From assembly GCF_006363815.1 (NCBI RefSeq), contig NZ_RRYT01000001.1:326768-367417 (forward strand): DNA of 40,650 bases, read 5' to 3'. This document shows positions 2,912 to 40,376 of the stretch, one piece after another. The number at the start of each line of letters is the position of its first letter. Position 1 is the stretch's first letter. The stretch is from Thermomonospora catenispora. Lineage in GTDB: Bacteria > Actinomycetota > Actinomycetes > Streptosporangiales > Streptosporangiaceae. The position numbers and the translations under genes were made by a program. The notes under the pieces were generated by a model that saw only the letters and a list, made by a program, of their open reading frames with translations, ran no database searches and was not told the DNA's origin.

Positions 2912-4636
2912 GTGGCAGACGGCTGGACGGTCCCGGGTTTCACCCCTGTGCGGGAACTGGGACACGGATCCACCGGCCGGGTGATGGTGGCCGTCGACGA
3001 GGTCACCCGGACCGAGGTCGCGATCAAGTACCTGGATCCTCGGTTGACCGGCGACGAGGAGTTCATGGCGGCCTACCGGCCGCTGGCCGACCGGTTGACC
3101 CGGCTGGAGGATCCGAGCATCGCCGACCTGTACCAACTGGTGGACGGCCCCGACGGCGCCGCCGCCGTGGTGATGCGGCGGGTCGACGGCGTCGGGCTGA
3201 GCCGGATCCTGGACACCCAGGGGCCGACGGGACCGCTGGCCGCGCTGACCGTGTTCGGCAGCACGCTGGCGGCGCTGGCGGTGGCGCACCGGGCCGAGGT
3301 GGTGCACCGAGACCTGCGTCCCGACAACACGCTGGTCGACCGGACCGGTCAGGTGGTGATCACCGACTTCGGGCTGGTCCCGCCGCGCCGCTCCAGGTCC
3401 GGCGGCGAGCCGCCCGGCGCGCCCGCCTATCTGGCGCCCGAGCTGTGGGACGGGGCGTCCGCCTCCCCCGCCTCCGACCTGTACGCGGCGACCGTGGTGT
3501 TCTTCCAGTGCCTCACCGGACGCCACCCGTACGAGAGCGGCGGCGGCGGTGGGCGGGCGATCGCGGCGCTGGGCCGGGCGCATCGGGAGGCGCCGATCCC
3601 GACCGAGGCGGTGCCCGGGCCGCTGCGCGGGCTGATCTCCGCCGGACTGGCCAAGGACCCCGCCGACCGGCCCGCCTCGGCGGAGGAGTTCCTGGCCGCC
3701 CTGGAGGAGGCGGCCGTCGCCGCGTACGGGCCGGCCTGGGAGGCGCAGGGACGCGGCCGGCTGGCCGAGATGGTCACCGCGGCCGAGAACGCCCCGCCGC
3801 CCGAGCCCGCCCCCGCCACGACCGCCGGACGCCGGCCGGACCGGCCGTCCCGGGGGAGCCGGGGCCGGCTGGTGGGCAGCGTCGCGGCGATCGTCGCCGT
3901 CGTCGCGATCGCCGGGGCCAGCGTGGCGTACGGGCTGAACCGCGGCGGCGGCTCGTCCACGGCGCAGTCCACCGTGTCCCCCGCCGCCGTGCCGCCCGCG
4001 TCCACGCCCGCGACCTCCCCCACCCGCTCCCCCGCCGACGCCCTGGCCGCCCGCATCATCACGGCGACGACCCGCCGGCCGAGCGCGTCGTTCACCTACC
4101 GGGGCAAGGGCTGCTGCGGCGCGGACGCCACCGCCAAGGGGACCTTCGCCGTCCGGCCCGGGCGCCCCCCGGCGTACACGATGACCGCCTCCGGCCCCGC
4201 CCGGCAGACCCGCAAGGCGGCCCGGGTGATCCTGATCGACGAGACGGCCCACGTGCGGCGGGGCGACGGCTGGCGCGAGGTCCCGGTCTCGACCCGTTCG
4301 GCCTCGGCGCAGGGCCATGCGCCGCTGGCGGCGCGGATCCGCGAGTGCACGTCGGTCGACCACGTCGTCGCGCTCGTCCAAAAGAGCACCGACCTGCGGC
4401 GCACCGGGCGCACCTACCGGGGCACCGTGGCGGTGGCGCAGCTGGGCGCCGCGCATCCGTACGCCGCCATCGCGCGGGCGGCCAAGACCGAGCGGCTGAC
4501 CTATGCGCTGGTGCTGGACGCCGCCGGGCTGCCCAGCCGGCTCACCGTCACCATCGGCTCGGGCCGCACCCGGGCGGTGCTGACCACCGCCTACGGCAAC
4601 TGGGGCAAGCGGGTCGTCATCGACGCCCCGCGCTGA
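2912..4636 (+). CDS. membrane Ser/Thr protein kinase with extracytoplasmic domain
   Basis: GTG at 2912 is chosen because GGAGGG (2898-2903) lies 8 bases upstream; this gives 574 aa. The kinase domain covers about residues 8-265, with loop GHGSTGRV, lysine K39 (VAIKYL), HRDLRPDN (132-139), DFG (152-154) and an APE-type motif (AYLAPE). A Pro-rich linker leads to one transmembrane helix at about 320-342. Roughly 180 residues then lie outside the membrane. They look like an LppX/LprG-type lipoprotein fold (beta-rich, ending TAYGNWGKRVVIDAP), a layout expected of a ligand-sensing receptor kinase; this fold call is inference. The catalytic-loop lysine (HRDLK) is arginine here (R136), which is unusual but not necessarily inactivating. 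It is divergent from hemL and convergent with the PrimPol gene. Confidence 0.88.
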   Translation: MADGWTVPGFTPVRELGHGSTGRVMVAVDEVTRTEVAIKYLDPRLTGDEEFMAAYRPLADRLTRLEDPSIADLYQLVDGPDGAAAVVMRRVDGVGLSRILDTQGPTGPLAALTVFGSTLAALAVAHRAEVVHRDLRPDNTLVDRTGQVVITDFGLVPPRRSRSGGEPPGAPAYLAPELWDGASASPASDLYAATVVFFQCLTGRHPYESGGGGGRAIAALGRAHREAPIPTEAVPGPLRGLISAGLAKDPADRPASAEEFLAALEEAAVAAYGPAWEAQGRGRLAEMVTAAENAPPPEPAPATTAGRRPDRPSRGSRGRLVGSVAAIVAVVAIAGASVAYGLNRGGGSSTAQSTVSPAAVPPASTPATSPTRSPADALAARIITATTRRPSASFTYRGKGCCGADATAKGTFAVRPGRPPAYTMTASGPARQTRKAARVILIDETAHVRRGDGWREVPVSTRSASAQGHAPLAARIRECTSVDHVVALVQKSTDLRRTGRTYRGTVAVAQLGAAHPYAAIARAAKTERLTYALVLDAAGLPSRLTVTIGSGRTRAVLTTAYGNWGKRVVIDAPR

Positions 4637-6908: not shown

Positions 6909-8474
6909 TCAGCGCCGTCTGCGGGCGCCGCGGCGCATCTGGCTGGGCTTGCGCAGCGGGTCGCCCGCCTCGATCTGGGCGGCCCGTCGCCTTGCACCGT
7001 ACTCCGCCAGGGCGTCGGCCAGCGTCAGGGCCGAGGGCTTCTCGGCCATCACGTCGACGCGCAGCCCGTACTCCTGGGCGGTCTTGGCGGTCTGCGGGCC
7101 GATCACCGCGATCACCGTCACGTTGTGCGGCTTGCCGGCGATGCCGATGAGGTTGCGCACCGTGGAGGAGGAGGTGAACAGCACCGCGTCGAAGCCGCCG
7201 CTCTTGATGGCCTCGCGGATCGGCGCCGGCGGCGGCGCGGCCCGCACCGTGCGGTAGGCGGTGACGTCGTCGCACTCCCAGCCCAGCTCGGTGAGCCCGG
7301 CGATCAGCGTGTCGGTGGCGATGTCGGCGCGGGGCAGCAGCACCCGATTGATCGGGTCCAGGTCCTTGTCGTACGGCGGCCAGACCTCCAGCAGGCCCTC
7401 GCCGGACTGCTGGCCGGTCGGCACCAGGTCCGGATGGACCCCGAACTCGATCAGCGCCTTGGCGGTCTGCTCGCCGACCGCGGCGACCTTGAGCCCGGCG
7501 AACGCCCGGGCGTCCAAGCCGTAGTCGAGGAACTTCTCCTTGACCGCCCGCACCGCGTTGGTGGAGGTGAACACCACCCACTCGTAGCGGCCGGTGACCA
7601 GGCCCTTGACGGCGCGGTCCATCTGCTGCGGGGTGCGCGGCGGCTCCACCGAGATGGTCGGCACCTCCTCGGGCACCGCCCCGTAGGAGCGCAGCCGCTC
7701 CGACAGCGAGGCGGCCTGCTCCTTGGTCCGCGGCACCAGCACCCGCCAGCCGAACAGCGGCTTGGTCTCGAACCACGAAAGCCGCTCCCGCCAGCCGACC
7801 ACATCCCCTACGATGATCAATGCCGGCGACTCCATGCCCTTGGTGTCGGAGGCCAGCCGGTGCAGCGTGGAGACGACCGTCTCCTGCTGGGTGGTGGTGC
7901 CGAGGCTGGTCATGGCGGCCGGGGTGGAGTCCGGACGACCGGCGGTCATCAGTCCCTTGGCCACCTCCGCCACCATGGTCTCGGCGCCCAGGATCACCAG
8001 CGTGGTGTCGGGATCGGCATAGCGGTGCCAGTCCACCCCGCCGTGGGAGGCGTCGATCACGCGGATCTCGCGGGTGCGGGAGTCGGTCAGCGGGATGCCC
8101 GCGTACGCGGGCACGCCGGTGGCCGCCGACACGCCCGGCACGATCTCGAACGGGATGCCGGCGGCGGCGCAGGCGGCGGCCTCCTCGGCCAACGGGCCGG
8201 CCACCCCCGGGTCGCCCCGGAACAGCCGGACCACGGTGCGTCCCGCCTTGGCGGCGTCGCCGACCAGCGCGACCGGATCGCCCTCGGAGGCGTCCAGGAT
8301 CTCGGCGTCCGGCCGACAGTGCGCCAGGATCTCGCCGGGACAGCCCTCCCGGTGCACCACCACGGTGTCGGCTTCACTGAGCTTGGCGACGGCCCGGACG
8401 GTCAGCAGTTCCGGGTCGCCGGGGCCCATTCCGACGAAGGAAACGGTGCCCTGGTCGGTCTCAACGGGGCTCAA
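6909..8474 (-). CDS. hemD: fused uroporphyrinogen-III C-methyltransferase / uroporphyrinogen-III synthase
   Basis: This 521-aa protein joins two enzymes. Residues 1 to about 245 are a SUMT-type methyltransferase (SAM-dependent, making precorrin-2 for sirohaem/cobalamin), shown by the VGMGPGDPELLTVRA signature near the start and by GDPGVAGPLAEEAA further in. Residues from about 255 to 500 are a HemD-type synthase, which closes hydroxymethylbilane to uroporphyrinogen III; characteristic segments include FTSTNAVRAV and DAVLFTSSSTVRNL. Such CobA-HemD fusions are normal in actinobacteria and place a branch point on one polypeptide. The start overlaps the hemC stop by 14 nt, suggesting translational coupling. 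The C-terminal tail is basic (RRGARRRR). Confidence 0.95.
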   Translation of the reverse strand: MSPVETDQGTVSFVGMGPGDPELLTVRAVAKLSEADTVVVHREGCPGEILAHCRPDAEILDASEGDPVALVGDAAKAGRTVVRLFRGDPGVAGPLAEEAAACAAAGIPFEIVPGVSAATGVPAYAGIPLTDSRTREIRVIDASHGGVDWHRYADPDTTLVILGAETMVAEVAKGLMTAGRPDSTPAAMTSLGTTTQQETVVSTLHRLASDTKGMESPALIIVGDVVGWRERLSWFETKPLFGWRVLVPRTKEQAASLSERLRSYGAVPEEVPTISVEPPRTPQQMDRAVKGLVTGRYEWVVFTSTNAVRAVKEKFLDYGLDARAFAGLKVAAVGEQTAKALIEFGVHPDLVPTGQQSGEGLLEVWPPYDKDLDPINRVLLPRADIATDTLIAGLTELGWECDDVTAYRTVRAAPPPAPIREAIKSGGFDAVLFTSSSTVRNLIGIAGKPHNVTVIAVIGPQTAKTAQEYGLRVDVMAEKPSALTLADALAEYGARRRAAQIEAGDPLRKPSQMRRGARRRR

Positions 8475-9393
8475 TGTCGCGCTCCCCCATCAACTGGTCG
8501 GCCCCCTGGGCCAGCAGCCGGGCGGCGAGCTCCCGCCCGATCTCCTCGGCCCGTTCCGGGCGGCCGCTTGCGGACAGCCGTACCTGACGGGCGCCGTCGA
8601 TGCCCGCGACGCACGCGGTCAGGTACAGGCTCGGTTCGGCGTCTGCGGAGTCCTCGACGGTCGCGTACGCGCCGACCGGGGCCGAGCAGCCCGCCTCCAG
8701 CACCGCCAGCACGGTGCGCTCGGCGGTGACGGCGGCCCGGGTGGCCGGATCGTCGACCGTGCGCAGAAGCTCCACCAGGTCGGCGCGGTCGGACCGGCAT
8801 TCGATCGCGAGCGCGCCCTGCCCGGGGGCGGGCAGCATCTGCTCCGGGTCCAGGACCTCGGCGACCGCGTCCAGCCGGCCGATCCGTCCCAGCCCAGCGT
8901 AGGCCAGCACCACCGCGTCCAGTTCACCGTCGGTGATCTTGCGCAGCCGGGTGTCGGCGTTGCCGCGGATCGGGACGACCTTCAGGTCGCCGCGCAACGC
9001 CCGCAGCTGGGCGACCCGCCGGGGAGAGCCGGTGCCGACCCTGGCCCCCGGCGGCAGGTCCGCCAGCTTGGCGGGCCCGCACAACGCGTCACGGGGGTCG
9101 TCGCGCCGGTGGACGGCGGCCAGGGTGATGCCCTCGGCGGGAGCGGTGGGCAGGTCCTTGAGGGAATGCACGGCGAAGTCGACCTCGCCGGCCAGCAGCC
9201 TGTCCCGCAGCGCGCTGACGAACACCCCGGTGCCGCCCATCTGGGTCAGGTGGGCGCGGGAGACGTCGCCCTCGGTGGTCACGCCGACCAGCTCGACGGT
9301 GACCCCGGTGCGCCGCTCCAGCTCGTCGGCGACACGCCGGGACTGGGTGGTGGCCATCAGGCTCTTGCGGGTGCCCAGGCGCAGGGTGGTCAT
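8461..9393 (-). CDS. hemC: hydroxymethylbilane synthase (porphobilinogen deaminase)
   Basis: HemC polymerises four porphobilinogens into hydroxymethylbilane. The 310-aa protein shows the start TLRLGTRKSLMATTQS, the catalytic aspartate region VDFAVHSLKDLPT (71-83), the arginine-rich VGTGSPRRVAQL (119-130) and the dipyrromethane-cofactor cysteine in LEAGCSAPVGAY (C236). It overlaps hemA by 4 nt (ATGA) and hemD by 14 nt, so hemA, hemC and hemD are likely translated as a coupled set. Nothing unusual is seen. Confidence 0.97.
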   Translation of the reverse strand: MTTLRLGTRKSLMATTQSRRVADELERRTGVTVELVGVTTEGDVSRAHLTQMGGTGVFVSALRDRLLAGEVDFAVHSLKDLPTAPAEGITLAAVHRRDDPRDALCGPAKLADLPPGARVGTGSPRRVAQLRALRGDLKVVPIRGNADTRLRKITDGELDAVVLAYAGLGRIGRLDAVAEVLDPEQMLPAPGQGALAIECRSDRADLVELLRTVDDPATRAAVTAERTVLAVLEAGCSAPVGAYATVEDSADAEPSLYLTACVAGIDGARQVRLSASGRPERAEEIGRELAARLLAQGADQLMGERDIEPR

Positions 9394-10694
9394 GATGCAG
9401 GTCCTTCGATGTCGGGGCGGGCCACGGCCTCGGGCGCCTTGGGGTCGAGGTCGAACAGCTCGCGCAACGCGGCGGCGTAGGTGTCGCCGCCGGGCGCCGC
9501 CGCCAGTTGCTTGACGCGGACGGTCGGCGCGTGCAGCAGTTTGTCCACCACCCGCCGGACCGTCTGGGCGATCTCGGCCCGGTCGCGCTCGTCCAGACCG
9601 GGCAGCCGGCCGGCGAGCCGGGCCAGCTCGGCGTCGACGACCTGGGCCGCCTTGCTGCGCAGCGCCACCACGGTCGGGGCGACCGCCGCCGCGCGGGCGG
9701 CGGACAGGAACGCGGCGACCTCGTCGGCGACGATGCGCCGCACCGCCTCGACGGCGCGGGGGCCGAGCGCCTGGGTGGCCTCCTCGGCGGTGCGCAGGTC
9801 GTCCAGCCCGGCCAGCGACACGCCGGGCAGTTCGCCGACGGCCCGGTCGATGTCGTGCGGCAAGGCCAGGTCCAGGAAGAAGCGCCGCTGCTCGGCGGGC
9901 GGGACCTGCTCGGCGGTGATCACCAGCCCGGTGGCGCCGGTGCAGGAGACCACCAGGTCGGCCTCGGCCAGCGCGCCGTTCAGGTCGGCCAGCTCGATGG
10001 CCCGGGCGGGCGCCCGGGCGCCGTCGGCCAGCCTCCGGGCCCGTTCGAAGGTGCGGTTGGCGACGACGATCTCGCCGATCCCGGCACGGTCCAGGGTGGC
10101 GACCGCCAGGCCGCTCATCGCCCCGGCGCCGACCACCAGCGCGCGCTTTCCCGACAGCTCGCCCAGGTGCTCCTCGGCGACCGCCAGGCCGACGCTGACC
10201 AGGGACGCCCCGGCCTTGTCCACGCCGGTCTCGGCATGCGCGCGCTTGCCGACCCGCAGCGCCTGCTGGATCAGCTCGTGCAGCCCGCGGCCGATCGTGC
10301 CCTCGGCCTGGGCCAGCCGGAACGCCTGACGCATCTGGCCGAGGATCTGGCTCTCGCCGACGACCATGGAGTCCAGCCCGCAGGCCACCGAGAAGGCGTG
10401 CTGGACGGCCCGGTCCTCATAGTGCACGTACAGATGCCGGCTCAGCTCCTCCAGCTGCACGCCGGCGTGCCGGGCGAGCAGCTCGGAGATGTCGGAGACG
10501 CCGCCGTGGAACTTGTCCACCACGGCGTAGACCTCGACGCGGTTGCAGGTCGAGACGATCAGCGTCTCCGCCACGTGCTCGGAGTCGTAGACCTCGTGCA
10601 GCAGCTTGACCAGCTCGTCGCCGGAGACGGCGGCGCGCTCCAGCATGGCCACCGGAGCGCTGCGGTGGCTGATCCCGACCACCAGGACAGTCAT
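9390..10694 (-). CDS. hemA: glutamyl-tRNA reductase
   Basis: HemA reduces glutamyl-tRNA(Glu) with NADPH to glutamate-1-semialdehyde, the committed step of the C5 pathway. The 434-aa protein has the nucleophilic cysteine in STCNRVEVYA (C50), the VGESQILGQMRQAF segment, a Rossmann-type NADPH site (ALVVGAGAMSGLA) and the C-terminal dimerisation helices. It starts 22 bp after the rex stop codon and overlaps hemC by 4 nt. Being the first biosynthetic gene after rex puts the controlling enzyme of the pathway under the Rex operator, as known for the rex-hemACD operon of Streptomyces coelicolor. Confidence 0.97.
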   Translation of the reverse strand: MTVLVVGISHRSAPVAMLERAAVSGDELVKLLHEVYDSEHVAETLIVSTCNRVEVYAVVDKFHGGVSDISELLARHAGVQLEELSRHLYVHYEDRAVQHAFSVACGLDSMVVGESQILGQMRQAFRLAQAEGTIGRGLHELIQQALRVGKRAHAETGVDKAGASLVSVGLAVAEEHLGELSGKRALVVGAGAMSGLAVATLDRAGIGEIVVANRTFERARRLADGARAPARAIELADLNGALAEADLVVSCTGATGLVITAEQVPPAEQRRFFLDLALPHDIDRAVGELPGVSLAGLDDLRTAEEATQALGPRAVEAVRRIVADEVAAFLSAARAAAVAPTVVALRSKAAQVVDAELARLAGRLPGLDERDRAEIAQTVRRVVDKLLHAPTVRVKQLAAAPGGDTYAAALRELFDLDPKAPEAVARPDIEGPAS

Positions 10695-10716
10695 CGGCCC
10701 ACCGCCTCACTCGTGG

Positions 10717-11487
10717 TCATGCCTCAACCGCCTCGATGTACTCACTGGTACCGGGAGGTCGTTCCCGCCTCGGCCCGTCGCCATGTCCGCTCAGCCCTTT
10801 CGACCAGTCGTCCGCCGCGCTCTCGCCCGGTCCGCCCGCCTTGCGCTGCTCGTGGAACGCCAGGATCTGCAGCTCGATGGACAAATCGACCTTACGCACC
10901 TCGACCCCCTCGGGCACCGAGAGGACGACCGGGGCGAAGTTCAACACGCTCGTCACCCCCGCCGCGACCACGCGGTCGCACAGGGCCTGGGCCGCCGACG
11001 CGGGTGTCGCGATCACCGCGATGGAGACCCCGTGCTCGTCGATAACGCGTTCCAGTTCGTCGATATGCCGCACGGTCAATCCGGCGATCTCGGCGCCCAC
11101 CACCGCGGGATCGGCGTCCAGCAGGGCGGCCACGCGGAATCCCCGGGAGGCGAACCCGCCGTATCCGGCCAAGGCCCGGCCCAGGTTACCCACGCCGATG
11201 ATGGCGACCACCCAGTCCTGGGTGAGACCCAGCTCACGGCTGATCTGGTAGATGAGGTAATCGACCTCATAGCCGACGCCTCGGGTGCCGTAGGAGCCCA
11301 GGTGCGACAGGTCCTTGCGGAGCTTGGCGGAATTGACGCCGGCGGCGGCGGCCAGCTCCTCGGAGGAGACGGTGACCACCCCCCGCTCCTGCAGGCTGTG
11401 CAGCGCGCGCAGGTACACCGGCAGCCGCGCCACCGTGGCTTCTGGGATCCCCCGCTCGGCGCGGGTGCGGTTGTGTCGACGTGTCAC
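10717..11487 (-). CDS. rex: redox-sensing transcriptional repressor Rex
   Basis: Rex is a dimeric repressor that binds DNA when NADH is low and lets go when NADH/NAD+ rises. The GTG start at 11487 gives 256 aa and places the conserved GIPEATVARLPVYLRAL about a dozen residues in, as in known Rex proteins; the longer upstream frame begins beyond the promoter and is excluded. The winged helix includes VSSEELAAAAGVNSAKLRKD; the NAD(H) Rossmann domain has AIIGVGNLGRALAGYGG; the C-terminal swap helix carries DLSIELQILAFHEQRK. A roughly 40-residue hydrophilic tail follows. The gene heads the hem operon, and a matching operator lies 124-141 bp upstream, indicating autoregulation. Confidence 0.96.
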   Translation of the reverse strand: MTRRHNRTRAERGIPEATVARLPVYLRALHSLQERGVVTVSSEELAAAAGVNSAKLRKDLSHLGSYGTRGVGYEVDYLIYQISRELGLTQDWVVAIIGVGNLGRALAGYGGFASRGFRVAALLDADPAVVGAEIAGLTVRHIDELERVIDEHGVSIAVIATPASAAQALCDRVVAAGVTSVLNFAPVVLSVPEGVEVRKVDLSIELQILAFHEQRKAGGPGESAADDWSKGLSGHGDGPRRERPPGTSEYIEAVEA

Positions 11488-11599
11488 GGCCTGCTCTTCG
11501 GGGCTCGACGCCAGAACTTGCGATCCGACCGGTCCGGGCGGCGCGGTCCGGTCCCGTCGGGCCGATCGGGGCCGGCACGAACCGCCCTGGACTGCCCCC

Positions 11600-11628
11600 A
11601 GGTTAGACGTTTGTGAACACGCGCACAA
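11600..11628 (-). promoter_or_regulatory. promoter of the rex-hemACDB operon
   Basis: On the reverse strand TTGTGC (11628-11623) is followed after exactly 17 bp by TAACCT (11605-11600). Transcription would start near 11593, leaving a leader of about 105 nt before the rex GTG. The Rex operator covers the -35 and most of the spacer. Confidence 0.6.
11611..11628. promoter_or_regulatory. Rex operator (ROP site)
   Basis: TTGTGAACACGCGCACAA matches the actinobacterial Rex consensus TTGTGAA-N4-TTCACAA at 12 of 14 defined positions; the two mismatches are the TT of the second half-site. It sits across the promoter, where bound Rex would block RNA polymerase. Confidence 0.8.
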
Positions 11629-11697
11629 AGTCACGAGGGTGGCGCATGCCTCCATCTCGACCGCCCCGCCAGGCGTTCACGCAGCTCAATGTGCCAT

Positions 11698-34176: not shown

Positions 34177-35067
34177 ATGACCACCACGCCGCTCAACGCC
34201 GTCCGCTACACTGCGCCGATCCTCGACTGGTACGCCGAGCACGCCCGCGACCTGCCCTGGCGCGCCCCCGAGGCGACCCCGTGGGGGATCCTGGTCAGCG
34301 AGATCATGCTGCAGCAGACGCCCGTCGCCCGCGTGCTGCCCGTCTGGCGGGAGTGGATGCGGCGCTGGCCCACCCCCCGGGCGCTGGCCGCCGAGCCGTC
34401 CGGGGAGGCGGTGCGGGCCTGGGGGCGGCTGGGATATCCGCGCCGGGCGCTGCGCCTGCACGCGTGCGCGGTGACGATCACCGAGCGGCACGGCGGGCGG
34501 GTGCCGGACTCCTATGCGGAGCTGCGGGCCCTGCCGGGGGTCGGGGCGTACACCGCGGCGGCCGTGGCCAGCTTCGCCTACCGGCAGCGCCACGCCGTGC
34601 TGGACACCAACGTGCGGCGGGTGCTGGCGCGGATGATCACCGGTGTGGAGTATCCGCCCAGGTCGCAGACGGCCGCCGAGGTCGCCCTCGCCGAATCCCT
34701 CCTCCCGCCGGACGCCCCCACCGCCGCCCGCTGGTCCGTGGCCGTCATGGAGCTGGGCGCGCTGGTCTGCACGGCGCGCAACCCCCGCTGCGCCGACTGC
34801 CCGGTCATCGGCTCCTGCGCCTGGTACCGGGCCGGTCGGCCGCCCCACGAGGGGCCGCCCCGACGCGGCCAGGCGTACGCGGGCACCGACCGCCAGTGCC
34901 GGGGGCGCCTGCTCGCCGTGCTGCGCGAGGCCGACGGCCCGGTGGAGAAGGCGGCCCTGGACGTGGTCTGGGCCGACCCCGTCCAACGCGAACGCGCCCT
35001 CGACGGGCTGGTGGCCGACGGCCTCGTCGACCCCCTGGAGGACGGGCGGTACGCCCTGCCCTCCTGA
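34177..35067 (+). CDS. mutY: A/G-specific adenine glycosylase
   Basis: MutY removes adenine mispaired with 8-oxoguanine. From ATG 34177 (AGGA 11 nt upstream; ATG 34165 is an alternative) the product is 296 aa. The catalytic glutamate (SEIMLQQTPV, E42), the helix-hairpin-helix LPGVGAYTAAAV and catalytic aspartate (LDTNVRR, D143) are present. The [4Fe-4S] cluster ligands are C198, C205, C208 and C214. The C-terminal 8-oxoG-recognition domain found in E. coli MutY is replaced by a short winged-helix-like tail of about 70 residues, typical of actinobacterial short forms. It converges with eboE across a strong hairpin. Confidence 0.93.
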   Translation: MTTTPLNAVRYTAPILDWYAEHARDLPWRAPEATPWGILVSEIMLQQTPVARVLPVWREWMRRWPTPRALAAEPSGEAVRAWGRLGYPRRALRLHACAVTITERHGGRVPDSYAELRALPGVGAYTAAAVASFAYRQRHAVLDTNVRRVLARMITGVEYPPRSQTAAEVALAESLLPPDAPTAARWSVAVMELGALVCTARNPRCADCPVIGSCAWYRAGRPPHEGPPRRGQAYAGTDRQCRGRLLAVLREADGPVEKAALDVVWADPVQRERALDGLVADGLVDPLEDGRYALPS

Positions 35068-35163: not shown

Positions 35164-35214
35164 GCGCCGCCGGCCCGCCGGCGCAGCGGCGGCGACGCGG
35201 CGGGCCGGCGGCGC
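35164..35214. terminator. 17-bp perfect inverted repeat between mutY and eboE
   Basis: The 17-bp arms at 35164-35180 and 35198-35214 are exact reverse complements around a 17-nt loop. It can act in both directions as a terminator for the two convergent genes; the right arm ends 10 bp from the eboE stop. No T-tract is present. Confidence 0.75.
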
Positions 35215-35224
35215 CGTGGGCCGA

Positions 35225-36376
35225 TCAGTTCTCTTCCTTAAGGCCCAGCCGGATCAGCTCCTCGCGCATCCAGGTGAGCTCGCCGACGATCCCGTCGATC
35301 AACGCCCCCTTGCCCCGGGTGTGCCCCGGCAGCACCTCCCAGGTGTAGGTCTCCACCTCCACATGGTCGGTGAGCGCGCGCTCGCCCCCGAGCAGGGTCT
35401 CCAGCACGTCGCTCAGCACCGGCCGGGTGGACCGCAACGGCTCGGCCGGCGCGGCGTGCAGGGGGACGTGATAGTGGATGCGCCACTCGCGCTCGCCGGG
35501 CAGCTCCCCCTCCAGGGCGACGTCCAGGTCGTCGACGCCGACCGCCACGTCCCGCTCCCTGGTCTGATGCAGGAAGCGGGGCTCGACGAACTCCCGCAGC
35601 GCCTCACGGGTCCGCGGGTCGGCGGGCCGGTCGGCCTGCAACGCGCAGGACGCCTGCACCTTGACCACCGGCAGCCCGGCGGCGGTCAACCGTTCCACCG
35701 CGGCCGCCGGGTCCTCGAAGCCCACCGCCAGATGACAGGCGTCCAGGCACACCCCCAGATGCCGCCGGCCGCCCAGCAGATGCTCGCCGGCCTGGACGGT
35801 GGACTCCACCAGGCAGCCGGGCTCGGGCTCGAACGCGACCCGGATGTCGCGGCCGGTGGCCGAGGCCAGCGCGAACAGCTCGCGGTCCAGCCGGTCCTGC
35901 CGCCGCCGCGCCAGCTCCTCCTGCGCCGGCGACCAGGGCTCCCGCCAGGCCACCGGCAGGGTGGAGATGCTGCCGTGCTCGGCGTCCTCCGGCAGCAGCC
36001 GGGTGAGGATGCGGGCCAGGTCGAGGGTGTAGCGCATCCGCTCGGGCCGGGTCCAGTCGGGGTGGTACACGTCGTGCTTGACCACCTCGCTGTGGAAGCC
36101 CTGGTAGGGGAAGCCGTTCATGGTGACGACCTCCAGGCCCGCCTTGTCGACGGCCCGGCGCAGCCGCAGCAGCTCGCCGGGGTCGGCGGTGAGCATGTCG
36201 GCCACGGACCGGGCCAGCCACAGCCCGACCCCCAGCCGGTCCACCCCCAGCCGGTCGCGGATGGGACGGGCGTACCGGGTGAACTGGGCGATCACCCCGT
36301 CGAGGTCTTCGGCGGGGTGAACGTTGGTGCAGTACGCGACGTGCACGAGGGTCCCGTCGCGATGTCGAAAGCGCAT
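35225..36376 (-). CDS. eboE: metabolite traffic protein EboE
   Basis: EboE belongs to the Ebo set that in cyanobacteria is needed for export of scytonemin precursors; its chemistry is not settled. ATG 36376 (MRFRHRDGTLVHVAYCTNVH) gives 383 aa, and the start falls one base after the TatD stop. The sequence reads as a TIM barrel of the xylose-isomerase type: VAYCTNVHPAEDLDG at the start, TMNGFPYQGFHSEVVKHDVY, VAFEPEPGCLVEST, LGVCLDACHLAVGFEDP and VKVQASCALQ. The Glu, Asp and His at strand ends could hold a metal. It is the last gene of the operon and ends at a strong hairpin. Confidence 0.88.
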   Translation of the reverse strand: MRFRHRDGTLVHVAYCTNVHPAEDLDGVIAQFTRYARPIRDRLGVDRLGVGLWLARSVADMLTADPGELLRLRRAVDKAGLEVVTMNGFPYQGFHSEVVKHDVYHPDWTRPERMRYTLDLARILTRLLPEDAEHGSISTLPVAWREPWSPAQEELARRRQDRLDRELFALASATGRDIRVAFEPEPGCLVESTVQAGEHLLGGRRHLGVCLDACHLAVGFEDPAAAVERLTAAGLPVVKVQASCALQADRPADPRTREALREFVEPRFLHQTRERDVAVGVDDLDVALEGELPGEREWRIHYHVPLHAAPAEPLRSTRPVLSDVLETLLGGERALTDHVEVETYTWEVLPGHTRGKGALIDGIVGELTWMREELIRLGLKEEN

Positions 36377-36377
36377 A

Positions 36378-37223
36378 TCATCCGCCTCGTTCGATGGTGT
36401 TGCCGGCATAGCACGCCGCGGGCTCCGCCTCGGCGAGGTCGAGCCGGCCGCTCTGCGCATAGAAGGCGACCGGGTTGTCCCACAGGACGGTCTCCACGTC
36501 AACGTCGGTGAAACCCGCCGCCAGCATCGCCTCCCCGACCCTACGGGTCTTGAGCGGGTCGCTGCGGCCCCAGTCGGCGGCCGAGTTCACCAGCATGCGC
36601 TCGGTCCCGTACTCCTTGAGGATCCTCACCATCCGATCTTCGTCCATCTTGGTGTCCGGATAGACCGAGAATCCCATCCAGCACCCCGACTCCTTCACCA
36701 TGGCCACGGTCGTCTCGTTGAGGTGGTCGATCAGCACCCGTTCGGGCGGCAGCCCCGACTCGCGCACCACGTCCAGGCTGCGGCGGGTGCCGGCGGCCTT
36801 GTCCCGGTGCGGGGTGTGCACCAGCACCGGCAGGTCCGCGTTCCGCGCCATCTCCAGCTGGGCGGCGAACGCCTCGTCCTCCTCGGGGGTCATCGAGTCG
36901 TAGCCGACCTCGCCGACCGCCACCACCCCGTCCTTGGCCAGATAGCGGGGCACCAGGTCGAGCACGGGACGGCAGCGGGGATCGCCCGCCTCCTTGGGGT
37001 TGAGCGCGATCGTGCAGTGGTGCCGGATGCCGAACTGCGACGCCCGGTACGGCTCCCAGCCCAGCAGCGAGTCGAAGTAGTCGACGAAGGTGTCCGGCGA
37101 GGTGCGCGGCTGGCCGAGCCAGAACGCCGGCTCGACCACGGCCCGTACCCCGGCGGTGTACATGGCCTCGTAGTCGTCGGTGGTGCGCGAGGTCATGTGG
37201 ATGTGCGGGTCGAAGATGCGCAT
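36378..37223 (-). CDS. eboB: TatD-family metal-dependent hydrolase (EboB-like)
   Basis: The 281-aa protein is an amidohydrolase-type barrel. Metal ligands are visible in FDPHIHMTS (H7, H9), VAVGEVGYDS (glutamate), VLVHTPHRDK (histidine) and LIDHLNE, with the final aspartate in VNSAADWGRSD. TatD relatives are nucleases or hydrolases; in Ebo clusters the substrate is unknown. It lies one base after eboA and one base before eboE, so the three are transcribed and translated as a block. The symbol follows cluster position and family. Confidence 0.88.
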   Translation of the reverse strand: MRIFDPHIHMTSRTTDDYEAMYTAGVRAVVEPAFWLGQPRTSPDTFVDYFDSLLGWEPYRASQFGIRHHCTIALNPKEAGDPRCRPVLDLVPRYLAKDGVVAVGEVGYDSMTPEEDEAFAAQLEMARNADLPVLVHTPHRDKAAGTRRSLDVVRESGLPPERVLIDHLNETTVAMVKESGCWMGFSVYPDTKMDEDRMVRILKEYGTERMLVNSAADWGRSDPLKTRRVGEAMLAAGFTDVDVETVLWDNPVAFYAQSGRLDLAEAEPAACYAGNTIERGG

Positions 37224-37224
37224 C

Positions 37225-37908
37225 TCAGAGCCATCCTTCCGGGAGTCGCCTGCCTTCGGTCACGTCCGGGTGCCGCCGGATCAGCGGCCGGACGTCCGCC
37301 GGGACGTCGCGCCCGGCGACGGTGCGCTCATGGGCGTAGTCGGCCAGCATCCGCGCCAGCTCGCGGTCGGCCCGCTGCTCCAGTCCGGCCACCGCCGACA
37401 GCGGAACGCCGACGAACACGCACTTGAGCACCGCCTGCCGGTACTCCGCGTCGGGGAGGCGCCGGGCCCCGTACGGGCCGACGGCCGCCTCGATCATCCG
37501 GGCGTCGTTGGTGCGGATCGCATCCCGCACGATCCGCAGCCCGTGCTCCCCCAGCGCCCCGTCGGCGTCCAGCCGGCCGAGCGCCCTGAGCACCGCGATC
37601 CGCTCGGCCGCATCGCCGTACCGGTAGACCCGCCACAGCAGCTCGCCCAGCTCGGCGCCCCGGCTGGACAGGGCCGTCAGCAGCCGTTCCCGGACCGCCT
37701 GGTCGACCGTCACCCCGGGCGCCCCCGGCATCGGGCCGCGGCCGCAGGCCCGCCCCGCCACCGGGAACAGCTCTAAGACGGCCTCCTCCCGTTCCCTGAT
37801 GCGCTCCAACGCCTGCGCCAGCCAGCGCCGGCCGCGTTCGTCCAGCGCGCCGTCCAGCGCGCCGTCCAGCGACCGCTCTCGGTCGAGCGTCTGGTCCACA
37901 TGCGTCAT
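37225..37908 (-). CDS. eboA: EboA family protein
   Basis: EboA is a mostly helical protein of unknown biochemical role found in Ebo clusters. From ATG 37908 the product is 227 aa. The body is a series of amphipathic helices (ELGELLWRVYRYGDAAERIA, VLRALGRLDADGALGEHGLR, IVRDAIRTNDARMIEAAVGP) followed by YRQAVLKCVFVGVPL, which is the best family marker, and an ADYAHERTVAGR stretch. A 12-bp duplication near the start gives a repeated DGAL. The ATG overlaps the stop of the isomerase (ATGA), and the stop lies one base from the TatD start. Confidence 0.85.
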   Translation of the reverse strand: MTHVDQTLDRERSLDGALDGALDERGRRWLAQALERIREREEAVLELFPVAGRACGRGPMPGAPGVTVDQAVRERLLTALSSRGAELGELLWRVYRYGDAAERIAVLRALGRLDADGALGEHGLRIVRDAIRTNDARMIEAAVGPYGARRLPDAEYRQAVLKCVFVGVPLSAVAGLEQRADRELARMLADYAHERTVAGRDVPADVRPLIRRHPDVTEGRRLPEGWL

Positions 37909-38765
37909 CGATTCGCCTCCCCAGTGATCCCCGCTTTCTCGGCCGCGGCCCGCAGGAAGCGGAGCGAACGCTCCGCGACCTCGGGCGCGGCATGGCTGTG
38001 CCGGGGCAGCTCCACGCCGACCAGCCCGCGATAACCGCAGGCCTCCAGCGCGGCCAGCACCGGCGGGAAGTCGATCTCGCCCTCGCCGAACTCCAGGTGC
38101 TCGTGCACCCCGCGGCGCATGTCCTCGATCTGCACGTTCACCAGATGGGGGGCCGCGCGGCGGACGCAGTCGGGGACGGGCTCGGGCTCCAGGCAGCGGC
38201 AGTGCCCGATGTCCAGCGTGATGCCGAGCGCGTCCGGCGCGCCCAGCCGGGCGTGCAGGTCCGCGAACCCCGCGATGGTGTCGATGAACATCCCCGGCTC
38301 CGGTTCGAAGCCGAGCCGCACGCCGAGGCGTTCGGCCTCGGCGACGACGCGGGCGACGCCCTCGGTGAGCCGCCGCCATGCGGTCTCCTCCGGCAGATCG
38401 GGGTCCGCCGTGCCGCTCCACAGCGACATCGCCTCCGCGCCCAGGTCGGCGGCCACCCGGACCGCCCGCAGCAGCAGGTCGAGCCGGCGGGCGGCCTCGA
38501 GCGGCGGGTCCAGCAGCGTCGGCCGGTGCTTGCGGCGCGGGTCCAGCACATAGCGCCCGCCGGTCTCCACGACCACGCTCAGCCCCAGCTCGCCCAGCCG
38601 GGCGGCGACCTTGTCCACCGTGCGCGCCAGGTCCGCGTCGAACGGGTCGAGGTGCCCGCCGTCCAAGGTCAGCGCCACCCCGTCGTACCCGAGGTCGGCC
38701 AGCACCGCGAGCGCATCGTCCAGCCGGTGGTCGGCGAACCCGTTGGTCCCGTAGGCGAACCTCAT
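37905..38765 (-). CDS. xylose-isomerase-like sugar phosphate isomerase/epimerase
   Basis: The 286-aa TIM barrel opens with MRFAYGTNGFADHRLDDALA and shows the strands GVALTLDGG, VVVETGGRY, AEAMSLWSG, LGFEPEPGMFID, LGITLDIGHC, NVQIEDMRRG and VGVELPRHSH. Glutamate, aspartate, histidine and a final glutamate at strand ends fit a metal site. It probably acts on a phosphorylated cyclitol or sugar, given the inositol-phosphate synthase upstream; this is inference. It corresponds in position to the barrel protein of other Ebo clusters (EboD-like), but I withhold the symbol. ATGA overlaps occur at both ends. Confidence 0.85.
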   Translation of the reverse strand: MRFAYGTNGFADHRLDDALAVLADLGYDGVALTLDGGHLDPFDADLARTVDKVAARLGELGLSVVVETGGRYVLDPRRKHRPTLLDPPLEAARRLDLLLRAVRVAADLGAEAMSLWSGTADPDLPEETAWRRLTEGVARVVAEAERLGVRLGFEPEPGMFIDTIAGFADLHARLGAPDALGITLDIGHCRCLEPEPVPDCVRRAAPHLVNVQIEDMRRGVHEHLEFGEGEIDFPPVLAALEACGYRGLVGVELPRHSHAAPEVAERSLRFLRAAAEKAGITGEANR

Positions 38766-38923
38766 CGCGACGGCACCTCCCGGTCGGACGCCGTGACGCC
38801 GCCGGGCGCCGCCGCGGCCGACGGCGCCGCCCCCTCACCGGTCCCGGCTGGCCTCCGCCCCGTCGGGCCTGCGGCGCTCGGGCGCGTCCGGCGCCCGGTC
38901 CCGTGTCCGGTCGCGCCGTTCAT
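38762..38923 (-). CDS. 53-aa ORF coupled by ATGA on both sides
   Basis: The frame starts with an ATG overlapping the inositol synthase stop and ends with a TGA overlapping the isomerase ATG. It encodes 53 residues rich in Gly, Arg, Pro, Ala and Thr (MNGATGHGTGRRTRPSAAGP at the start), with about 90 percent G/C at third positions, but overall composition is equally extreme. No motif, helix or signal is seen. It may be a real small protein, a coupling peptide that keeps ribosomes on the mRNA, or the scar of a deleted gene such as the UbiA-type prenyltransferase expected in an Ebo operon. Confidence 0.4.
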   Translation of the reverse strand: MNGATGHGTGRRTRPSAAGPTGRRPAGTGEGAAPSAAAAPGGVTASDREVPSR

Positions 38924-40074
38924 GCGGCCGCTCCCAGCCCGGCGGCCCACTCGCGCAGCAGCTCGTACTGGAGGACGAGCCGGTGCTCCCGCACGCCGAT
39001 CGGGTCCTTGAAGAAGAAGCCCAGCGCCGGCAGCGGACCCGACTCGCCCGCCTCGTGGGCGCGGGCCGTCAGCCGGGCCAGGTCCAGCACCAGAGGGGCG
39101 GCCAGCGCCGAGTCACAGCCCTGCCAGGTGAACTGCAGGGTCATCCACACCCCGCCGAACCCCTCGAACAGCACATGGTCCCAGGCGGTCTTCCACTCCC
39201 CCATCGACGGCACGTAGTCGATGTGGGTCTCGCCCTCGGCCCTGCGCCCGAGGATCTCGGTGAGCGCCCGGTCCTTGGAGGTCTTCTTGCTGCGCCCGGC
39301 CTGCGGGTCGGCCAGCGTCGCCCCGTCGCCGCCGCCCAGCAGGTTGGTGCCGGACCAGGAGCGCACGTTCAGCGCCCGGGCCGTGAACATCGGCGCCAGC
39401 GCCGTCTTGACCAGCGTCTCCCCGGTCTTGGCGTCGCTGCCCGCGTACGGGACGCCCATCCGACGGGCCAGCTCGTCCAGGGCCGGAAGCCGCACTCCGG
39501 TGGACGGGGTGAAGTCGATGTAGGCGCAGCCCGCCCGCAGCGCGGCGTAGGCGTACACCGAGCTCGGCGGCAGCACGTCGCCGGAGACGGCGAGGGCGCG
39601 TTCCAGCGCGTCGAGGTCGGCGTGCTCCGGGCGCCGGGGGAACGGCGGCTCGGTGGAGGCCACGTTGACCACCACGATCCGGTCCAGGCCCCGCCGCTCC
39701 CGGAAGGAGGTCAGGTCCGCGATCAACCGGTCGGCGTGCTCGCGTTGCGTTCCCGGCTCCCCGGCGACCAGGCCGACCCGGATCTCCGAGTCCGCCTCCT
39801 CCAGCTCATGGGCCACCGCGGTCGACGACCACGAGGGCACCACTCCGGCGCGCGCCAGCTCCTCGGCCCGTTTGACCAGCGGCGCCGTCCCGGCGAGGTC
39901 GTGGCCGCCGAACACCAGCGTCTCCAGTCCCGGCAGCCCCGCCTCGGCGAAGTCCGCCGTCTCGGTGACGCATCCCACCGGCGGGAGCAGTTGGGCTCTG
40001 ATCGCCGCAGCCCCGGTGATCACCGTCGTCGCCACGGAGCCGCGGCCCCCCACCAGCCAGACACCGATCCTCAT
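38920..40074 (-). CDS. inositol-3-phosphate synthase (divergent type)
   Basis: The enzyme cyclises glucose-6-phosphate to inositol phosphate with bound NAD. The 384-aa product has the Gly-rich WLVGGRGSVATTVITG, then SDAKTGETLVKTALAP, WSGTNLLGGGDGATL, the lysine region GRSKKTSKDRAL and DYVPSMGEWKTAWDHVLFEG. Together they place it in the MIPS family, but in a subgroup distinct from the housekeeping Ino1, which has a GxGNCAS-like motif. GAGGGGG precedes the ATG. It is co-transcribed with isomerase, EboA, TatD and EboE, suggesting it provides the scaffold of the cluster product rather than of phosphatidylinositol. Confidence 0.9.
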   Translation of the reverse strand: MRIGVWLVGGRGSVATTVITGAAAIRAQLLPPVGCVTETADFAEAGLPGLETLVFGGHDLAGTAPLVKRAEELARAGVVPSWSSTAVAHELEEADSEIRVGLVAGEPGTQREHADRLIADLTSFRERRGLDRIVVVNVASTEPPFPRRPEHADLDALERALAVSGDVLPPSSVYAYAALRAGCAYIDFTPSTGVRLPALDELARRMGVPYAGSDAKTGETLVKTALAPMFTARALNVRSWSGTNLLGGGDGATLADPQAGRSKKTSKDRALTEILGRRAEGETHIDYVPSMGEWKTAWDHVLFEGFGGVWMTLQFTWQGCDSALAAPLVLDLARLTARAHEAGESGPLPALGFFFKDPIGVREHRLVLQYELLREWAAGLGAAA

Positions 40075-40154
40075 CGAACCCCCTCACAACCCATGCCCGA
40101 CACTTCTTCCGAGCCCGACACGACGGCTCAGCGGACCTGCGGCCGCCGGCCGCT

Positions 40155-40376
40155 TCAGGACTCGATGCGAAACGGCCGGCCGGCGCAGGCGCCGTCCGCC
40201 AGGGCGATGCCTGCGTCGAGCACGGTGATGCCGCGGGGGGTGATCGATCCCGGTGCGCTCACCGTGGAGCGCGGGGCGGGACGGACGCATCCCGGCCCGC
40301 CGGGCGGTAACGCCGCCGTCAGGCCGCTGTCGGCCGTCAGTCGGGCCACGGCCGACGAGGTGTGCGATCTCGACAT
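40155..40376 (-). CDS. 73-aa small protein heading the Ebo-type operon
   Basis: ATG 40376 follows a strong AAGGGGGG ribosome-binding site by 4 nt. The 73 residues include MSRSHTSSAVARLTADSGLT near the start and TVLDAGIALADGACAGRPFR near the end, with two cysteines and many Pro/Gly/Ala. Third codon positions are almost 90 percent G/C, in favour of real coding. No family is recognised, and no transmembrane helix or signal peptide is present. It ends 80 bp before the inositol synthase and may share its mRNA. A peptide precursor, a small regulator or an accessory subunit are all possible. Confidence 0.6.
   Translation of the reverse strand: MSRSHTSSAVARLTADSGLTAALPPGGPGCVRPAPRSTVSAPGSITPRGITVLDAGIALADGACAGRPFRIES

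Follow-up and report, generated by a model that had tools for sequence, protein, structure and literature searches.

The window analysed here (the whole stretch, 40,650 nucleotides (nt) from Thermomonospora catenispora) carries an Ebo-type operon built around an enzyme of the MIPS (inositol-phosphate synthase) family, in which the gene for the UbiA-type prenyltransferase EboC is missing. The operon is probably a gene-loss derivative of the MIPS-type Ebo operon common among actinobacterial relatives, in which the UbiA gene and a ScyD/ScyE-family gene have been lost and the soluble half is still used. Its anatomy and losses, the co-occurrence of its genes, its conserved catalytic residues and the constraint on its coding regions were established by computation. 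The original prediction, made from the sequence of the window alone, had taken the lack of UbiA for a feature of the actinobacterial version of the cluster. This view did not hold up: a SCO3242-family UbiA stands beside MIPS in most relatives, and judged from gene content the absence is a lineage-specific loss and not an actinobacterial type.

The missing prenyltransferase gene

The gene run originally described was borne out in its open reading frames (ORFs), order, strand and spacing. All ORFs lie on the minus strand, in the order 73-amino-acid (aa) ORF, MIPS, 53-aa ORF, TIM, EboA, EboB and EboE. The 73-aa ORF is separated from MIPS by 80 nt. From the coordinates, 4-nt overlaps join MIPS to the 53-aa ORF, the 53-aa ORF to TIM and TIM to EboA, and gaps of 1 nt follow between EboA and EboB and between EboB and EboE. 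Neither small ORF matched a family in the Pfam and NCBIfam scans. As had also been noted, the operon has no UbiA gene; between the genes for MIPS (38920..40074) and the TIM-barrel protein (37905..38765), only the 53-aa ORF (38762..38923, minus strand) is found.

Five genomes were compared within the genus. In one congener, G120, the position of the 53-aa ORF is occupied by a gene for a 275-aa UbiA (locus L062, 4255-5082), which passes the SCO3242 model NF045897 (330 bits, cut-off 260) and stays below the cut-off of the EboC model NF035940 (116 bits, cut-off 250). UbiA is also present in G067 and G098, with a dN/dS ratio (omega) of 0.37 between the G120 and G067 genes, and was not found in the window genome or in G140. 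In the window its place is taken by a scar of 136 bp between 38917 and 38782, made up of filler with 87% GC, in which the open frame and the 4-nt overlaps are kept. Resemblance to UbiA is limited to the last ~20 bp of the 53-aa ORF. The ORF was considered as a shrunken UbiA and rejected, its 136-bp core being no better than shuffles against the UbiA regions of G120, G067 and G098 on either strand. A search for a donor of the scar elsewhere in the genome, with 40 of 511 candidates scored, gave short matches of 74–91% identity, none of which spans the scar.

Two explanations had been offered for the missing EboC: a distant partner gene, or a different, non-prenylated product. A genome search does not support the first. 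PF01040 finds two genes in the window genome, a heme O synthase (432 bits) and MenA (398 bits), and the UbiA of G120 has no match there at E 1e-3. The option of a non-prenylated product survives, beside that of pathway decay.

The usual layout and its co-occurrence

Of 150 genomes in the family to which the window belongs, 56 have an EboE over its cut-off, as do 76 of 296 in the class. Selected from the matches, 80 neighbourhoods were fetched, 77 around over-cut-off EboE and three (L136–L138) around weaker relatives, and the loci were scored with profiles derived from their own sequences. The common layout among actinobacterial relatives is MIPS-EboC-TIM-EboA-EboB-EboE. The linkage of MIPS to the Ebo genes, on which the original prediction turned, is conserved: a window-type MIPS is present in 65 of the 80 loci and is followed, as the nearest Ebo gene, by an EboC-like UbiA in 62 of these. 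The three exceptions (L063, L068 and L094, of genomes G130, G149 and G119) each have a SCO3242-family UbiA elsewhere in the genome. MIPS was not seen in the other 15 fetched loci, among which L067 and L078 hit contig ends. A second set, which overlaps the first in some genomes (e.g. L161 and G067), comprised 80 named loci, the best of 158, from a search with the window MIPS; EboC lies downstream in 57 of them, and the other five genes were not seen downstream, in the stretch covered, in 22. One member, L162 of Sphaerisporangium album, has TIM-EboA-EboB without EboC, and UbiA elsewhere in the genome. The window shows the MIPS, TIM, EboA, EboB, EboE order of the layout as defined in this analysis; it lacks the SCO3242-family UbiA, and its operon is therefore a putative gene-loss derivative and not a full member.

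The same pattern is seen across the 150 family genomes, where UbiA was called over its model cut-off and Ebo-type MIPS at E 1e-60 or better; a limited number of candidates was scored in each genome, so that single misses are possible in these counts. UbiA is found in 52 genomes, Ebo-type MIPS in 52 and both in 51, with 53 having either. MIPS without UbiA occurs in the window genome alone, and UbiA without MIPS in G141 alone. Four genomes have EboE without UbiA (the window's, G140, G091 and G025), and none has UbiA without EboE. The window genome is the sole EboC-less one of the 150 with MIPS, TIM, EboA, EboB and EboE all intact.

G141 presents the mirror case, its locus L244 (6211-10379) holding an intact EboC-TIM-EboA-EboB-EboE run, with no Ebo-type MIPS elsewhere in the genome. 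In G140, of the same genus, the locus (L076) has an intact EboE (7491-8642, minus strand) and an EboB tail; MIPS, EboC, TIM and EboA are gone. The private changes of this EboE are 20 synonymous and 14 nonsynonymous, and it may therefore be useful there in its own right. Outside the phylum, MIPS, TIM and an EboC-like UbiA stand together in metagenome-assembled genomes (MAGs) of Phycisphaerae (L225, 1397-4911) and, with an EboB-like gene, of Desulfosarcina (L236, 3862-14461), and the pairing of MIPS with UbiA is thus not confined to actinobacteria.

The remnant of a ScyD/ScyE-family gene

The second loss lies at the head of the operon. The 73-aa ORF (40155..40376, minus strand) is the remnant of a secreted-protein gene of the ScyD/ScyE family. 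At its position G120 encodes a 390-aa member of this family (L062, 1820-2992; NF033206, 280 bits, cut-off 80); the 73-aa ORF itself is not matched by NF033206. Window positions 40650-40208 align to L062 1553-1988, and 40194-38917 to 2953-4229. The window retains the 5' part of the gene and its 3' tail, with the same stop codon, and ~0.95 kb between them is gone. Omega of the remnant is 1.12 against G120 (57 codons) and 0.64–0.81 against G067, G098 and G140, compared with 0.46–0.69 for the same part in pairs among G120, G067, G098 and G140; the raised value is a small-sample signal in a fast-evolving part of the gene. In the remnant the most hydrophobic 19-residue stretch scores 0.97; within the first 40 residues of the protein of G120 the value is 1.97. 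Selection thus seems to have been lifted from the remnant, but not from the five Ebo genes.

Thermomonospora and Actinomadura macrotermitis have ScyD/ScyE-like genes upstream of the Ebo operon, in tandem in two genomes. Besides that of L062, they lie at L066 173-1312 and 1559-2737, L075 441-1625 and 1813-3003, and L164 6733-7812. They echo the scytonemin link of the cyanobacterial Ebo genes.

MIPS as a probable stand-in for EboD

The MIPS gene is predicted to encode an NAD-dependent sugar-phosphate cyclase. The enzyme is divergent, as had been predicted: it passes both Pfam domains (PF07994, 163 bits, cut-off 25; PF01658, 111 bits, cut-off 27), scores 43 bits with the mycothiol INO1 model TIGR03450, whose cut-off is 638, and has as its closest PDB entry the MIPS of Archaeoglobus fulgidus (1u1i, 227 bits). 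The inositol-3-phosphate synthase 1gr0 is a distant match, at 48 bits. The window enzyme retains the residues that are altered in 3qvw, 3qvx and 3qw2. In an alignment of 146 rows, the window included and some genes being represented by two rows, N244, D250, K267, K295 and K356 are invariant, and position 223 is K in 115 rows and R in 31. The two domains together with these predicted catalytic residues place the enzyme in the MIPS family. A second MIPS homologue of the window genome, on contig C54, is 30% identical over residues 171-358.

In the ebo clusters of other phyla, EboD is described as a relative of DHQ synthase that acts as a sugar-phosphate cyclase (PMC5133447). The corresponding domain, PF01761, was sought in 37 chosen genomes having actinobacterial Ebo clusters, its position being judged by coordinates. 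It was found at the Ebo locus in none of the 37 and elsewhere in the genome in all of them; the single match of the window genome lies on another contig (C39). Since no EboD-type cyclase is present at these loci, MIPS appears to fill the EboD slot and, on the simplest reading, to supply the cyclitol in its place. A cyclitol-phosphate-derived compound is thus a plausible product.

MIPS enzymes of this kind occur in other settings as well. In Micromonospora chalcea a 59%-identical MIPS belongs to a different gene cluster (L194, 2966-14843), beside a DegT aminotransferase, a carrier-protein domain, a pyridoxal-phosphate (PLP) decarboxylase and an acyl-CoA dehydrogenase, and five more Micromonospora MIPS loci are without other Ebo genes nearby.

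The other Ebo proteins

The assignment of the cluster to the Ebo type stands on EboE and the EboA domain, both over their NCBIfam cut-offs, and on a TatD-like protein over its Pfam cut-off. EboE (35225..36376, minus strand), a TIM-barrel protein, scores 431 bits with NF035939 (cut-off 250). EboA (37225..37908, minus strand), a predicted helical-repeat (HEAT-like) protein, passes the EboA_domain model NF035938 (161 bits, cut-off 50) and stays below the cut-off of the narrower EboA_family model NF035937 (80 bits, cut-off 320). EboB (36378..37223, minus strand) is a TatD-like metal-dependent hydrolase, 95% identical to its G120 counterpart; no EboB-specific model turned up in the NCBIfam scan, and EboB is called from PF01026 (50 bits, cut-off 27) beside EboA. 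The remaining protein, a TIM-barrel isomerase/epimerase-like one (PF01261, 140 bits, cut-off 31), has a weak PDB match to a UlaE-type epimerase (42 bits). A TIM barrel is described as fused to EboA in some actinobacteria (PMC5133447). Members of the eboA-F type of cluster found in the window are EboA, EboB and EboE; EboC, EboD and EboF are not among its genes. The EboF-type domain PF01663 has matches on contigs C78 and C13 of the window genome and none on the window's contig.

NF035939 alone is no proof of an Ebo cluster, since one protein over its cut-off (L115, 7496-8758, minus strand) adjoins a 2-oxoacid dehydrogenase operon. L115 was also considered as an EboD-bearing actinobacterial Ebo cluster and rejected; its EboE is divergent, and the genes next to it are those of an aldehyde dehydrogenase and a 2-oxoacid dehydrogenase. 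A search of L125, L127 and L129 with the locus-built profiles found no other Ebo gene, their neighbours not having been scanned with Pfam. A further 31 of the 150 family genomes have only EboE relatives below the cut-off.

Selection on the retained genes

The five retained genes have no internal stops or frameshifts. Omega, estimated from Nei-Gojobori counts with parsimony polarisation and not from a likelihood model, is 0.37 for MIPS, 0.24 for TIM, 0.55 for EboA, 0.13 for EboB and 0.34 for EboE between the window and G120. Over 1526 codons, polarised with G067 and G098, the window branch carries 86.5 synonymous and 61.5 nonsynonymous changes (omega 0.264, bootstrap 95% interval 0.19–0.36), and the G120 branch 37 of each (omega 0.368, 0.22–0.57). 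The EboB row of G140 has a stop and was dropped. Values for two flanking controls, mutY and a MarR gene, were left unused because those of G120 were aberrant, probably from a wrong or shifted gene (dN against the window 0.19 for mutY; dN >1.5, with a stop, for MarR). With the genes for all five predicted soluble proteins intact and constrained, the soluble half of the operon is probably still in use.

Interpretation

We infer that the full operon of the relatives makes a prenylated product. The MIPS-like enzyme, in EboD's stead, would form a cyclitol phosphate by cyclising a sugar phosphate. This intermediate would be modified by the TIM barrels and the TatD-like hydrolase, and EboA, as a helical-repeat protein, may hold the enzymes together. 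Prenylation at the membrane by the SCO3242-family UbiA would then yield a cyclitol linked to a lipid, which could serve in the transport of a metabolite through the membrane, a carrier role put forward as a hypothesis in PMC6282210.

Several observations weigh against continued use of what is left in the window lineage, or against the scheme as a whole. In Nostoc each single ebo deletion tested, eboC included, is reported to have abolished scytonemin (PMC6282210), and loss of EboC may therefore kill the pathway. The other three family genomes with EboE and no UbiA lack Ebo-type MIPS too: G140 retains EboE and the EboB tail, G091 has TIM, EboB pieces and EboE, G025 has a broken EboE, and their MIPS matches are weak only (42–54 bits). 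The pairing of MIPS with UbiA has gaps, as G141 keeps just a MIPS stub (profile positions 1-19) before EboC, with the rest retained, and L102 and L120 have EboC and no MIPS in reach, although a second locus in the L102 genome (L103) bears MIPS. The EboA_family and EboC models score below cut-off even for intact genes. Finally, if the loss of UbiA were very recent, a low omega would say nothing about later use; the unrecognisable UbiA scar argues mildly against so recent a loss.

Some of these points bear on early decay, in which the pathway is dead without UbiA and the secreted protein and the five genes were orphaned too recently to erode. In G140, G091 and G025 the Ebo-type MIPS is gone along with most of the cluster, as would be expected of such decay, and it would also fit with two losses in one operon and with the joint presence of MIPS and UbiA otherwise in 51 of the 53 genomes having either. 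However, the five genes have no frameshift or internal stop, the window-branch omega is not above that of the sister branch, and the drifted ScyE remnant speaks, together with the scar, mildly against a very recent loss; we consider early decay somewhat unlikely. It is possible, and tentatively proposed here, that the soluble MIPS-TIM-EboA-EboB-EboE set has kept or gained a function of its own as an EboC-free Ebo pathway leading to a non-prenylated cyclitol. Ebo would then consist of two modules, a soluble one for the cyclitol and a separable one for prenylation and export. A prenyltransferase acting in trans, be it MenA, heme O synthase or another enzyme encoded elsewhere, is highly improbable: split clusters do exist, with UbiA elsewhere in five g34 genomes and in S. 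album, but the sole PF01040 genes of the window genome score as heme O synthase and MenA and the G120 UbiA is unmatched, in a search that covered UbiA-family enzymes. We give equally little credence to an assembly error by which a UbiA present in the organism is missing from the draft. Despite the 109 contigs of the assembly and the GC content of the scar, the junction is internal to a contig and has filler of its own, an open frame and undisturbed overlaps, the assembly is 99.98% complete, no other contig carries UbiA, and the same operon shows a second loss of a different kind. A gene-loss derivative with its soluble half in use is the reading that we hold to be probable.

Flanking features

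A GC-rich hairpin lies between the convergent eboE and mutY-like genes (main stem ~35164..35214, minus strand). The operon had been said to end at a strong hairpin; the hairpin exists, with a fold of -77 kcal/mol over 111 nt, but its strength is in doubt, as z is -1.58 and 14 of 200 shuffles fold equally well. It has no T run and was not listed in the terminator scan. Much of the fold is owed to composition, being modestly better than shuffles, and the hairpin is thus weaker evidence than had been implied. The MutY-like gene itself (34177-35067, plus strand) scores 209 bits, below the cut-off of 286.5. Further off, hemC, hemA and rex form one leftward run of ordinary neighbours (8461-11655, minus strand).

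Comparison with known systems

The Ebo system, UbiA within it and the annotated pair SCO3242/SCO3243 are already known. Among the matches listed in the open-licence literature, no paper reports a link between MIPS and Ebo or the actinobacterial layout with MIPS for EboD, and the word 'inositol' is absent from the Ebo papers PMC5133447, PMC9235831 and PMC6282210.

The ebo cluster eboA-F, as described in PMC5133447 and tested in Nostoc punctiforme (PMC6282210), resembles the window in uniting an EboA domain, a TatD-like EboB and EboE in one operon, and resembles the window's relatives in its UbiA-type EboC and its proposed cyclitol-plus-prenyl product. It differs in that the window has MIPS for EboD, an extra TIM barrel and no PF01663 (EboF-type) gene in the operon, and in that EboC is of SCO3242 type in the relatives and absent in the window. 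SCO3242 and SCO3243, in the CDA region of Streptomyces coelicolor, are annotated as a putative transferase and a myo-inositol phosphate synthase (PMC3610822). The NCBIfam prenyltransferase family is named after SCO3242; the window has no gene of this type. UbiA-297, from ebo clusters of Flavobacteria and Saccharomonospora (PMC9235831), is like the UbiA of the window's relatives in belonging to an Ebo operon, and is reported to farnesylate 8-hydroxyquinoline-2-carboxylic acid in E. coli (PMC9235831). For these clusters, unlike the window with its lack of UbiA, eboD is described, and inositol goes unmentioned (PMC9235831). The MIPS of A. fulgidus (1u1i) is the best PDB match of the window enzyme, with the residues altered in 3qvw, 3qvx and 3qw2 conserved, and belongs to a different operon.

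A cyclitol-bearing lipid carrier was proposed for Ebo in PMC6282210. The pairing of MIPS with UbiA at loci without EboD independently supports a product with cyclitol and prenyl parts and suggests as its precursor a compound resembling inositol phosphate, which is testable in tractable actinomycetes; to this the window adds a natural loss of EboC for comparison with its congener.

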